Assembly (NCBI GenBank): GCA_016928995.1 | Contig: JAFGJS010000068.1 | Coordinates: 1-5,169, forward strand | Source: Candidatus Sumerlaeota bacterium | Lineage (GTDB): Bacteria; Sumerlaeota; Sumerlaeia; JAFGJS01 | Direction: 5' to 3' | Length of the DNA: 5,169 nt | Shown here: piece by piece, positions 1 to 5,169 of the stretch | How positions within the stretch are numbered: position 1 is the stretch's first letter | Layout: every line of letters begins with the position of its first letter | The notes under the pieces: model-generated | The model's input: the letters and a program-made list of their open reading frames with translations, nothing else | Databases searched by the model: none | What the model was told of the DNA's origin: nothing | Translations under genes and position numbers: made by a program

Positions 1-1
1 C

Positions 2-391
2 ATCGGCCCGTGGGCGGTCTACAAGCGCGCGGAGCGAACGGGCTATCAGTTTGACGCGGATGATCTCGAAGACGTTTACCGGATCACCGGCGGCTATGCC
101 ACCGAGGCGCTGATTCATCACTGGCGCGTGCTCCGGCGGCTTTCCGGCAATGTGACCGATCAGCAGATTGCGGATGACATCGGCGGCAACCTGCAACGCG
201 CCACGTCGATGATCCAGATGATTCTGCAGGATCTGTCCGCTGATGACGACACGCCGGGCGTGTTTGACCGCGAGGAACTGCATCGCCTTGAAGCCGCGCT
301 GGCTGAAGCCGCCGCGCAGATCGAGTCCGCGCAGGCGGACGTGCAGGGCCGTCTGCGAATCATTCAAAACAAGGAGGCCTCCAGATCATGA
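2..391 (+). CDS. Hypothetical protein, 5'-truncated (C-terminal 129 aa visible)
   Basis: I do not recognise this family. The frame is open from base 2 with no stop before the TGA at 389-391, so the gene very probably starts outside the window. A GTG at 128 could be read as a start, but the residues encoded upstream (beginning IGPWAVYKRAERTGYQFD) look like normal coding sequence, so that start is unlikely. The visible part is mostly helical. Its last 50 or so residues are rich in Ala, Glu and Gln with a heptad-like pattern (ELHRLEAALAEAAAQIESAQ), which suggests a coiled coil. There is no signal peptide, membrane segment or catalytic motif in the visible part. Its stop overlaps the next start as ATGA, so the two are probably translationally coupled. 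A phage accessory or regulatory protein is possible, but no function can be given. Confidence 0.7.
   Translation: MGPWAVYKRAERTGYQFDADDLEDVYRITGGYATEALIHHWRVLRRLSGNVTDQQIADDIGGNLQRATSMIQMILQDLSADDDTPGVFDREELHRLEAALAEAAAQIESAQADVQGRLRIIQNKEASRS
371..377 (+). promoter_or_regulatory. Strong ribosome binding site for the 388 gene
   Basis: AAGGAGG lies 10 bases before the ATG at 388, inside the last codons of the upstream gene. It fixes the 388 start. It is a near-perfect anti-SD match, which implies a host with ordinary SD-dependent initiation. Confidence 0.75.
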
Positions 392-735
392 AACCAATCG
401 CTTACATCGGAATGTATCGCAACATCCGCGGCGAGTGGGAGCAGCAGCGTTCAACGCTTGCGCTGGATGAGGTGGAATGCCGGCGCAGGTTCATCGCCTA
501 TCACGGCGTAGACGAAGACGATCTGACGCCTGAAGAGGTTTTCGACCGTCGCGAAGCAGCCGGCGAAGTGATGATCGCGCCGCTTGTCCGGGGTTATGAA
601 GTCATTGTCCATCCCGACGGATGCGATTGTGCAAATGACAATCGGTATGACGAGGACGAAGCGAATTTCGACGCCCTCGATGATTTTTATCACTCCATCG
701 GTTCAAGGCCATTGCCGGTTGGGAGTGCGGGTTGA
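388..735 (+). CDS. Hypothetical acidic protein, 115 aa
   Basis: Not recognised. The start is set by an AAGGAGG 10 bases upstream and by the ATGA overlap with the preceding gene. The protein has three visible parts. Residues 1-30 hold a hydrophobic strand-like start (IAYIGMY). Residues 31-65 are charged (VDEDDLTPEEVFDRREAAGE). Residues 66-103 hold a strand (YEVIVHP), a Cys-x-Cys pair at 79/81 and a very acidic stretch (DEDEANFDALDDFY). There is no membrane segment or signal peptide. The acidity and small size are common among phage early proteins that bind or mimic DNA-interacting surfaces, but that is only a possibility here. After its stop comes a 99-base gap, the largest in the window. Confidence 0.65.
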   Translation: MKPIAYIGMYRNIRGEWEQQRSTLALDEVECRRRFIAYHGVDEDDLTPEEVFDRREAAGEVMIAPLVRGYEVIVHPDGCDCANDNRYDEDEANFDALDDFYHSIGSRPLPVGSAG

Positions 736-820
736 TCTTCGGCCCCGCCTCCTGGGTGGAAAGCGCGCGAGCCTCGGGCGCGTCGAAGAAACCGGGTCAC
801 AGATCTTCAAAGACTGAGAT

Positions 821-2695: not shown

Positions 2696-2901
2696 TGATC
2701 AACGGATTCACACCCGAGCAGCTGGTGAAGGAAGTTGAGCGCGAGATCGAATACCGCGAATGGGTTTACAGCGCCCACGGATCGAAACGGATTTCGCATC
2801 AGAATCAACGGCGCATCGACATGATGAAAGCCATCGCGGACCACTTCAACGAGATGGCCGAGGCCTCTGGCGTACAGGGAGACATGCTCGATGTTTCGTG
2901 A
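2692..2901 (+). CDS. Small phage-type hypothetical protein, 69 aa
   Basis: The start is ATG 2692 (or 2695, the next codon), overlapping the upstream TGA as ATGA, with GGAG 8 bases before. The protein is almost entirely helical: PEQLVKEVEREIEYREWVYSAHG, then a basic turn (SKRISHQNQRRI), then MMKAIADHFNEMAE. From memory it recalls a widespread class of small phage proteins with the pattern E-L-x-x-R-x-x-V-Y-x(n)-R-R-I-x-x-M-x-A-I, which have no assigned function; I cannot confirm the match. It overlaps the next gene by 11 bases. There is no membrane segment or cysteine. A DNA-metabolism accessory role is guessed from location only. Confidence 0.65.
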   Translation: MMINGFTPEQLVKEVEREIEYREWVYSAHGSKRISHQNQRRIDMMKAIADHFNEMAEASGVQGDMLDVS

Positions 2902-3661
2902 GATCGCTACACTCGACGAGACCTGGTTTCGTGACGGCGGAACGGACACCGTGATTATGGCGAGCAATGGCGAGCGCGTTTGCGATCTGCATTACGCCAT
3001 CGATCAAAAGAACGGATCGCGCGGAGCCCATAACAACATGCCGCGATTCCGCATCAGGCGCGAGTTGATCCTGCTGGCGCCGCGTTTGTTCGCCAAACTC
3101 CGCGAGATGCTGGACGCCGATGCATTCTGCGAATTTATCAATCAATGCCTGAAAGGAGAATACAAGCCCATGACTGCTACAGCAGTGCGTCAACAGGAGC
3201 TCGAGCAGCAACTGGACGCCGAATTCAATAGCATGACGTGCGAGGGCGATCTGCCCGGCGACGTTGACGAGGAGAAAAAGCATTTCCTCAAGCGCTACAT
3301 GCGCATGCGCCTGGCCAAGGAAGCCGCCATCGAGCGGCTGAAGAACGACTTCGAGGCGGCGCGCAAGCGGCTGGAATCCGAACTGGCGGCCGTCGAGTAC
3401 CGCTTCGGCGAAGCGGCGCGCAACGTCGCCGGTGAGATGCTGGCCGCAAGCAAAAAGAAAAGCATGAAAACCTTGTGGGGAACCTTCGGCTTTCGCACGA
3501 AGGCGGCCGCGCTGGTGATCAAGCAGGAGCAGGATTGCCTGCAATCGCTGATGGCCAAAGCGCCGAAGCTGGTTCGCAAGGAAGTCAAGGTCAGCATCGA
3601 CAAGGCCGGCCTGAACGATTTTTCAAGGAACACGGCTGGGTTCCGGGCGGCTGTGAAGTGA
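2891..3661 (+). CDS. gam: Gam-like host-nuclease inhibitor with an extra N-terminal domain; 3' end apparently frameshifted
   Basis: Mu Gam-type proteins bind double-stranded DNA ends, as Ku does, and block RecBCD-type exonucleases. The Gam-like part begins near residue 94: a long charged coiled coil (about 128-185, KEAAIERLKNDFEAARKRLE), then KKKSMKTLWGTFGFRTK (188-204), the basic strand segment characteristic of the family, then the VSIDKAGL region. Residues 1-93 (MASNGERVCDLHYA; RRELILLAPRLFAKLREML) look like a different small phage protein that normally stands alone. An in-frame ATG at 3170 with AAAGGAG upstream could start Gam by itself. In the frame given the C-terminus is RNTAGFRAAVK. 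A shift to -1 after Phe244 gives FKEHGWVPGG...FYVKGA, the ending expected for the family, stopping at 3699 and yielding 269 aa (176 aa from M94). The start follows AGGGAG by 9 bases. Confidence 0.7.
   Translation: MFREIATLDETWFRDGGTDTVIMASNGERVCDLHYAIDQKNGSRGAHNNMPRFRIRRELILLAPRLFAKLREMLDADAFCEFINQCLKGEYKPMTATAVRQQELEQQLDAEFNSMTCEGDLPGDVDEEKKHFLKRYMRMRLAKEAAIERLKNDFEAARKRLESELAAVEYRFGEAARNVAGEMLAASKKKSMKTLWGTFGFRTKAAALVIKQEQDCLQSLMAKAPKLVRKEVKVSIDKAGLNDFSRNTAGFRAAVK
3152..3172 (+). promoter_or_regulatory. Internal ribosome binding site and ATG inside the gam-like reading frame
   Basis: AAAGGAG (3152-3158) lies 11 bases before an in-frame ATG at 3170, at the boundary between the N-terminal domain and the Gam-like part. 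Initiation here would give a 176-aa Gam-like product if the -1 shift is also made, a normal length for the family. Whether both products are made cannot be seen from sequence. Confidence 0.5.
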
Positions 3662-3699
3662 CGGAAGCCAGCGAGACATTCTACGTGAAAGGAGCATGA
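3619..3699 (+). other. Probable -1 frameshift site with downstream hairpin in the gam-like gene
   Basis: The run TTTTT (3619-3623) is read GAT TTT TCA in the gene's frame. Slipping back one base gives TTT TTC AAG and an open frame to the TGA at 3697-3699, ending FYVKGA. A hairpin follows: 3635-3645 (GCTGGGTTCCG) pairs with 3662-3672 (CGGAAGCCAGC), 10 of 11 pairs with one G-G mismatch and a 16-base loop that contains the zero-frame TGA (3659-3661). With the -1 ending, the gap to the next start is 3 bases, like the other junctions; without it the gap is 41. A lost T, either in the genome or in assembly, explains the data equally well. Confidence 0.6.
3688..3694 (+). promoter_or_regulatory. Ribosome binding site for the 3703 gene
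   Basis: AAAGGAG ends 8 bases before ATG 3703 and lies within the -1-frame ending of the gam-like gene, as expected in this overlapping gene array. Confidence 0.65.
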
Positions 3700-3702
3700 G
3701 GC

Positions 3703-4563
3703 ATGGCAATGACGCAAGGCAACACGGCGCTGTGGGACGCGGTCGAAAAGACCGATCCGGCGCACACCAAAACCTTCAGCCGTCCGGGCGGTTTTTCCGG
3801 CACGGCGATCAACGCCACCTGGCTGGCGAAACGGGCCACGGAAAAGTTCGGCCCCTACGGCATCGGCTGGGGCGTTGAAATCGTGGAAGAGCAGTACCAG
3901 CAAGGCGGCCCGATTGTTTTAGGCGGCGAGGTGAAAGGACATCAAATCGTCCACATCTATCGCATCAAACTCTGGTACAAGTGGGGCAAGGAGCGCGGCG
4001 CAGTGCCGTCGCTCGGGCAGACCACGTTCGTGGGGATCAACCGGAACGGCGTTTTCACCGACGAGGAAGCGCCCAAGAAAAGCCTGACCGACGCAATCAC
4101 CAAGGCGCTCAGCATGCTCGGCTTCGGCGCGGACGTGCACATGGGCATGTTCGACGACAACAAGTACGTCTCGGACCGCATGCGCGAGGAACACCAAAAG
4201 AAAATGACCGGGCAGCAAGGCGGACCGGCGCAACCGCAGCCTGTGCCGCAGTCCGCGCCGCCACAACAGAACGCGCCGCAAGCGCAACCGGCGCCGCAAC
4301 CGGCGCCACCGCCACAGCAACCCCCGCAGCAACCGCAACCATCGCCGCTGGCGTCACAGGAAGCGCTCAACGAGCTGTCACAGGCGATGAGCGGCATGAA
4401 GCCCGGCGAGGTCAAGAACATCCTGCAGCACTGGCTGAACAAGCCGGTCCAGGACGTTCCCGCCGAACAAATCTATCAATGGATCAACTCCAATCCGCTG
4501 ACCATCGAGGACGTCCAGGCGATCAAGGCCTATCTCAAATCCATCGGGAGGGAAGTCGCATGA
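3703..4563 (+). CDS. Probable phage single-strand annealing protein (Rad52-like / Sak3-type), 286 aa
   Basis: Such proteins coat and anneal complementary ssDNA during phage recombination, usually beside an SSB and a nuclease or nuclease inhibitor, as here. Residues 7-160 form the conserved-looking core: LWDAVEKTDPAHTK (10-23), GTAINATWLAKRATEKFGP (33-51), GIGWGVEI (53-60), then FTDEEAPKKSLTDAITKALS (118-137) and MLGFGADVHMGMFDDNKYV (138-156). The T-D-A-[IL]-x-[KR]-A-L-x-x-[LF]-G pattern is typical of Rad52-like annealing proteins. The start match to LWD-TDP phage recombination proteins is from memory. Residues 171-218 are a disordered Gln/Pro/Ala linker. Residues 219-286 form a helical C-terminal domain (EVKNILQHWLNKPVQ; TIEDVQAIKAYLKS) of unknown role, perhaps for partner binding. 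The TGA overlaps the SSB start (ATGA). The annealing activity is inferred; it could be annotated elsewhere only as hypothetical. Confidence 0.6.
   Translation: MAMTQGNTALWDAVEKTDPAHTKTFSRPGGFSGTAINATWLAKRATEKFGPYGIGWGVEIVEEQYQQGGPIVLGGEVKGHQIVHIYRIKLWYKWGKERGAVPSLGQTTFVGINRNGVFTDEEAPKKSLTDAITKALSMLGFGADVHMGMFDDNKYVSDRMREEHQKKMTGQQGGPAQPQPVPQSAPPQQNAPQAQPAPQPAPPPQQPPQQPQPSPLASQEALNELSQAMSGMKPGEVKNILQHWLNKPVQDVPAEQIYQWINSNPLTIEDVQAIKAYLKSIGREVA
4546..4553 (+). promoter_or_regulatory. Strong ribosome binding site for the SSB gene
   Basis: GGGAGGGA lies 6 bases before ATG 4560, inside the last codons of the upstream gene. It confirms the 4560 start, although the SSB frame stays open upstream to before 3981. 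Confidence 0.7.
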
Positions 4564-5093
4564 ACCGCGTAATACTGATCGGAAACCTGACACGGGATCC
4601 GGAACTGAAGTACCTGCAAAACAATAACGCCGTCTGCCGCCTGGGTGTCGCGGTGAATCGACGCGTCAAGAATCAGGACGGCACCTACCGCGACGAGGCC
4701 GATTTCTTCGACATCGAGGTTTGGGGCAATCAGGCGGCGAACTGTCAGCAGTACTTGGCCAAGGGCAAGAAGGTCGGCATCGACGGCCACCTGCGGCAGG
4801 ACACCTGGCAGGACAACAACACGGGGCAACAGCGCTCCCGTGTGAAGGTGGTCGCGGAGCGCGTCGAGTTTCTCTCGCCCGCCAATCAAAACGGCCAGCC
4901 GGGGCAGCAGCAACAACAGCAATACCCGCCGCAGCAGCAAGGCGGCTATCCGCAACAGCAGCATCAGCCGCCGCAACAGCAATACCCGCCGCAACAGTAT
5001 CAGCAGGGCGGCGGGCGGCAGCCGCAATTTCAGGCGCCAGCCGGAAACTACGGCCAGCCTTCCGGCAATGCGCAAGACGAAATTCCATTCTAA
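4560..5093 (+). CDS. ssb: Single-stranded DNA-binding protein (OB-fold SSB), 177 aa
   Basis: Bacterial-type SSB that coats ssDNA in replication and recombination, normally as a tetramer. It starts MNRVILIGNLTRDPELKY, the family's standard opening. The OB fold covers residues 1-106, with CRLGVAVNRR (26-35), ADFFDIEVWGNQAANCQQYL (47-66), KGKKVGIDGHLRQDTWQD (68-85) and VKVVAERVEFLS (95-106). Trp55 and Trp83 are candidates for base stacking. Residues 107-170 are a disordered Gln/Pro/Gly/Tyr-rich linker. The protein ends DEIPF, matching the acidic tip (DDDIPF in E. coli) that docks replication and repair partners. The length equals that of ordinary cellular SSBs. The start is fixed by GGGAGGGA and by the ATGA overlap with the annealing-protein gene, so the two should be made together. 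An upstream open frame in phase is a shadow of that gene. Confidence 0.96.
   Translation: MNRVILIGNLTRDPELKYLQNNNAVCRLGVAVNRRVKNQDGTYRDEADFFDIEVWGNQAANCQQYLAKGKKVGIDGHLRQDTWQDNNTGQQRSRVKVVAERVEFLSPANQNGQPGQQQQQQYPPQQQGGYPQQQHQPPQQQYPPQQYQQGGGRQPQFQAPAGNYGQPSGNAQDEIPF
4914..4993 (+). repeat. Two copies of a 20-bp direct repeat in the SSB linker
   Basis: CAACAGCAATACCCGCCGCA occurs at 4914-4933 and again at 4974-4993, exactly 60 bases apart and in frame. It encodes QQYPPQ in both copies, within a Gln/Pro-rich tract. This points to recent in-frame duplication, and gives a site where slippage or recombination could change linker length by 20 residues. Confidence 0.85.
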
Positions 5094-5110
5094 TCCAACG
5101 GGGAAAAAAC

Positions 5111-5169
5111 ATGGACTACCAAACGCAACTCATTCCGGTGCAGGACCTGATTCCGACGCCGGACAATCC
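5111..5169 (+). CDS. Probable ParB-like protein, 3'-truncated (first 19 codons)
   Basis: The window ends 19 codons into this gene. The visible protein is MDYQTQLIPVQDLIPTPDN. The stretch IPVQDLIPTPDN closely fits the opening of ParB/Spo0J/Srx-type N-terminal domains, which commonly read i-p-v-x-d-I-x-P-n-p-x-N-P-R. Such proteins bind or cut DNA, or bind CTP, and phages carry them both as partition factors and as stand-alone nuclease or regulatory proteins; which applies cannot be told here. A GGGGA at 5100-5104 lies 6 bases before the ATG, and the gap from the SSB stop is 17 bases, so it probably belongs to the same transcript. Confidence 0.5.
   Translation, partial: MDYQTQLIPVQDLIPTPDN

Follow-up and report, generated by a model that had tools for sequence, protein, structure and literature searches.

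A 3′-end frame change in a phage Mu Gam-like gene is most likely an ordinary indel rather than recoding

The main finding in this study is that a phage Mu Gam-like gene changes frame at a T5 run close to its 3′ end, which is most likely the result of an ordinary mutation or sequence error and not a new route to two proteins from one gene. Our preferred explanation, which we consider probable, is a net loss of one base by real mutation at the 3′ end of this phage gam homologue. The base would have been lost at or beside the T5 run, so that the protein would now carry a non-homologous tail, translation stopping 12 residues past the run, and the 25-residue former C terminus—a glycine loop followed by the last strand—would be left unread in the −1 frame. 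We infer that the loss is real and of recent date, in an accessory gene that is dispensable, and that any frameshifted Gam product is accidental. A true one-base deletion was among three possibilities raised in an earlier note made from the sequence alone, and it is the one favored by the 3′ position of the frame change, the apparently dispensable nature of the module in which it lies, and the small number of frame breaks in the assembly.

The window—the whole stretch of DNA that was analyzed, 5,169 bases—is an entire contig (C111) of a 161-contig draft genome that is 92% complete. The assignment of the frame-changed gene to the gam family, first proposed in the earlier note, holds: its zero-frame protein scores 30.8 bits against PF07352 (Phage_Mu_Gam), over profile positions 25–126 of 149, where the Pfam gathering cut-off is 28.3 bits, and it also matches three PHROG "Mu Gam-like end protection" families. 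Mu Gam is known to bind double-strand DNA ends, which it protects, and to block RecBCD (PMC3809393). By homology, the protein described here would be of the same Ku-like, double-strand-end-binding, host-nuclease-inhibiting type, with putative end binding and RecBCD block as in Mu Gam. The gene that follows encodes a protein matching phrog_7838, a family labeled exonuclease, whose relatives are annotated as RAD52-like annealing proteins, and the next is a single-strand DNA-binding protein gene (Table 1). Together, the gam, Rad52-like annealase, and ssb genes are a phage recombination module. A small ORF directly upstream is in frame with the gam-like gene, with no stop between them, and the two could be separate genes or a fusion.

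Table 1. Coordinates of the gam-like gene, its neighbors, and the features at its 3′ end
Feature	Position	Strand	Basis
Small ORF upstream of the gam-like gene	2891..3169	+	One open frame, 2891–3661
Likely start (ATG) of the gam-like gene, after AAAGGAG at 3152–3158	3170	+	Sequence
Mu Gam-like gene, zero frame, 163 aa	3170..3661	+	PF07352 above gathering score; ORF translation
T5 run (GAT TTT TCA), inferred site of frame change	3619..3623	+	Sequence; codon-usage switch point
−1 frame segment coding the family C terminus, FKEHGWVPGGCEVTEASETFYVKGA	3622..3699	+	Profile gains, decoy control, codon usage
Hairpin, arms 3635–3645 / 3662–3672, 10/11 pairs	3635..3672	+	Chance expectation 1.4 per window
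TGA, zero-frame stop of the gam-like gene	3659–3661	+	Sequence
AAAGGAG, ribosome-binding-site-like sequence of the next gene, within the end of the −1 frame	3688..3694	+	Sequence
TGA, −1 frame stop	3697–3699	+	Sequence
Rad52-like single-strand annealing protein gene	3703..4563	+	phrog_7838; relatives' annotation
Single-strand DNA-binding protein gene (ssb)	4560..5093	+	PF00436, 5e-37; phrog_44

Several lines of evidence support the −1 ending as the family C terminus, beyond what chance would give. The zero-frame protein ends in ...LNDFSRNTAGFRAAVK, whereas the −1 frame ends in FKEHGWVPGGCEVTEASETFYVKGA. With the −1 tail attached to the zero-frame body, the PF07352 score rises from 30.8 to 37.6 bits and the end of the match moves from profile position 126 to 148; the three PHROG Gam profiles likewise score higher. 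When the same body was given shuffled tails (n = 20), the best E-value was 8.5e-8, as against 1.9e-9 with the real −1 tail. A home-made profile built from 13 homologues showed no gain with the −1 tail and did not separate the two tails, but it is probably too narrow because the broader Pfam and PHROG models did separate them. Codon usage gives the same picture. With log-odds trained on the genes of the window, the −1 tail scores +0.17 per codon, inside the true-frame range (10th percentile, +0.14), while the zero-frame tail, at −0.22, resembles off-frame sequence (90th percentiles, −0.00 and −0.07), and the maximum-likelihood switch falls at codon 3620/3623, exactly at the T run. The gam-like gene apart from its tail has normal codon usage, and the frame change, if a mutation, is therefore recent. 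Furthermore, 3 nt separate the −1 stop from the start of the following gene, compared with 41 nt for the zero-frame stop.

The alignment with homologues points in the same direction. Both the invariant G and the last strand's F are located on the −1 tail (ETFYVK, aligned with ETFGYE and similar sequences), and DAFYIEIN is the corresponding sequence in the solved homologue 2P2U. In all 13 aligned Gam homologues, all of which are distant, the invariant G and F of this region are in one frame; here, both of these C-terminal PF07352 residues are in the −1 frame, and homologous coding continues in a frame other than that of the body. Compared with the Phage Mu Gam family (PF07352; solved member 2P2U), homology thus covers profile positions 25–126 in the zero frame and runs to 148 with the −1 tail, at about 11–22% identity to the aligned members. 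Our protein resembles the family in its phage recombination context but differs from it in having its C terminus out of frame and in not being encoded beside Mu transposition genes. The T5 run at 3619–3623, the zero-frame TGA, and the −1 frame open to 3699 are all in the sequence as the earlier note reported them, and its expectation that the −1 ending is the proper one is borne out by the profile gains, the shuffled-tail control, codon usage, and the homologue alignment.

The position of the frame change and the nature of the gene are both consistent with a real mutation. Tolerated indels are expected at the 3′ ends of genes, a point missing from the earlier note, and Antonov et al. (PMC3711429) argue that single unclustered frame breaks near the 3′ end are more likely to be indel mutations than sequencing errors. 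The gam-like gene is like the singleton frame-broken prokaryotic genes of that survey (Antonov et al. 2013, PMC3711429) in that its frame break is single, unclustered, and near the 3′ end, and in that homologues exist. It is unlike them in belonging to a phage module, in a draft genome, with distant relatives only. As for dispensability, the same genome contains a related element on contig C35 (14,551 bases), which matches the window in order: window positions 1–585 at 93%, 645–799, 1082–1781 at 87%, 2645–2892 at 92%, and 5096–5169 at 88%. The whole gam–rad52-like–ssb block is missing from this element, where about 33 bases replace window positions 2893–5095, and there is no gam counterpart. 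The gam-like gene is therefore in an exchangeable module, and the absence of the whole module from a related element in the same genome fits dispensable status. Another window gene also departs from its C35 counterpart near the 3′ end, by a 13-base indel.

The strongest alternative, which we regard as possible but unlikely, is that the phage gene is intact and that the consensus sequence dropped one T, in a short contig ending where two related elements have sequence in common. The frame change does occur at a homopolymer, the first base of the window coincides with the end of contig C35, where the two related elements become alike, and the normal codon usage in the remainder of the gene would also suit an intact gene. 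However, T5 is a short run. If short reads were used for this assembly, a run of this length would rarely be misread. A scan for frame breaks in sampled stretches of this genome (272 kb) gave five candidates, or 1.8 per 100 kb, compared with 0.6 and 0 per 100 kb in two related genomes. Since such breaks are few and none is at a run of five or more, the assembly is not riddled with homopolymer errors. The 3′ position itself also favors a tolerated mutation (PMC3711429). Real mutation is therefore more likely than assembly error, although the assembly indel that the earlier note had put forward keeps some probability.

Recoding of any kind is improbable. Its most plausible form, itself quite improbable, is low-level −1 ribosomal frameshifting at U_UU.U together with the hairpin, yielding some full-length Gam beside the short form, whether as a programmed event or as accidental rescue of an indel. 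The U_UU.U tetramer, a known weak −1 site (PMC4066793) that the earlier note passed over, is indeed present at the T5 run, and a stem of 10/11 pairs starts 9 to 12 nt past the possible A-site codons. Given a strong stimulator, U_UU.U is one of six Z_ZZ.N tetramers that clearly exceed background in E. coli, with 0.26–5.6% frameshifting across the six (Sharma et al., PMC4066793). However, tetramers lacking a stimulator are barely above background (PMC4066793), and the slippery X_XXZ_ZZN heptamer is absent here (C GAT TTT / T TTT TCA), leaving only the weak U_UUU tetramer. Moreover, U_UUU is found in frame at five further places in the genes of the window, and its presence at T5 is therefore not special.

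The hairpin does not change this view. Its geometry is as first described—10/11 pairs, a 5′ arm beginning 11 bases after the T5 run, and the zero-frame stop in the loop—but it is no better than chance. One 10/11 hairpin with a loop of 4–20 is observed in the window, compared with 1.4 expected from dinucleotide shuffles, and equally stable 44-nt stretches are present in nine separate regions of the window. Its z score is −1.95 in untrimmed segments and reaches −3.06 only when the segment is trimmed to the stem. Measured against dinucleotide shuffles of the window, no stimulatory structure beyond chance was found downstream of T5, and the hairpin is not evidence for recoding.

Homologues and precedent also argue against recoding. 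The two-frame arrangement is found in none of the aligned relatives: 13 of 13 homologues, none of them close, are single-frame, and conservation of the arrangement therefore has no support among these distant sequences. No close Gam relatives were found in IMG/VR, GTDB contigs, or phage records, and none at useful E-values in 386 whole genomes. Neighbor-gene searches yielded relatives of the Rad52-like, methylase-like, SSB, and primase genes but revealed no closer gam beside those scanned. In a survey of frame-transition genes in prokaryotic genomes, 146 clusters looked recoded, compared with 4,010 pseudogene clusters (Antonov et al., PMC3711429). The in-frame U_UU.U and downstream stem are shared with the Z_ZZ.N tetramer sites of −1 recoding described by Sharma et al. 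(2014, PMC4066793), but there is no conservation here, the hairpin is at chance level, and no need for two products is known. It is highly improbable that tetramer-driven −1 frameshifting with the hairpin provides both a full-length Gam and a shorter form lacking the last strand; if true, this would perhaps tune the protection of ends and the coupling of gam to the annealase gene. Least probable of all is transcriptional slippage at T5, in which an inserted U would restore the long frame in some of the mRNA. Although single-base transcript insertions predominate in A/T runs, they become exponentially more frequent as runs lengthen (PMC5574713), and T5 should therefore be a poor site. No long A or T run was found at the frame-change site, where there is T5 only, and five other T5 runs exist in the window. 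The idea that slippage produces two C termini is thus not supported, given the missing heptamer, the short T run, the chance-level hairpin, and the 13 single-frame homologues.

The gam case is a worked example of how a homopolymer frame change with a nearby hairpin can mimic recoding, even though an ordinary indel is favored when profile gain, codon usage, hairpin expectation, and homologue frames are tested. If recoding were shown, the gene would encode a Ku-like end-protection protein made in two forms under regulation. The presence in one genome of two related elements differing by a whole recombination module has a modest bearing on phage mosaicism.

Other features of these elements deserve mention. 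A Sak4-like annealase (phrog_124) is encoded further along C35. Contig C158, which starts inside a ParB-like gene 90% identical to that of C35, may carry on the element of the window, and no Sak4-like gene was seen among its ORFs. The window encodes an N-6 methylase-like protein (phrog_5696, a family annotated as of unknown function; 1800–2588), a gene that C35 lacks at that place and that has relatives at 43–45% identity in two IMG/VR contigs. The C terminus of ORF 388–735 is altered by a 13-base indel relative to its C35 counterpart (window 700–735; C35 piece L064:13450–13760), which has 217 residues and also a longer insert in mid-gene. This is an independent case of a 3′-end indel in the element, in which either state could be ancestral. 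Around window positions 730–797, about 65 bases (TTGATCTTCGGCCCCGCCTCCTGGGTGGAAAGCG...) are nearly identical to C35 and more conserved than the surrounding coding sequence. This stretch, which is out of frame in the window and has no Rfam match—no Rfam family was found anywhere in the window—is possibly a regulatory or RNA element. Finally, a stable G+C-rich hairpin (AGGTGTTACGAGCACCT) at 1582–1634, between the ORF ending at 1583 and the next, is largely common to C35 and is a candidate terminator-like or regulatory element.
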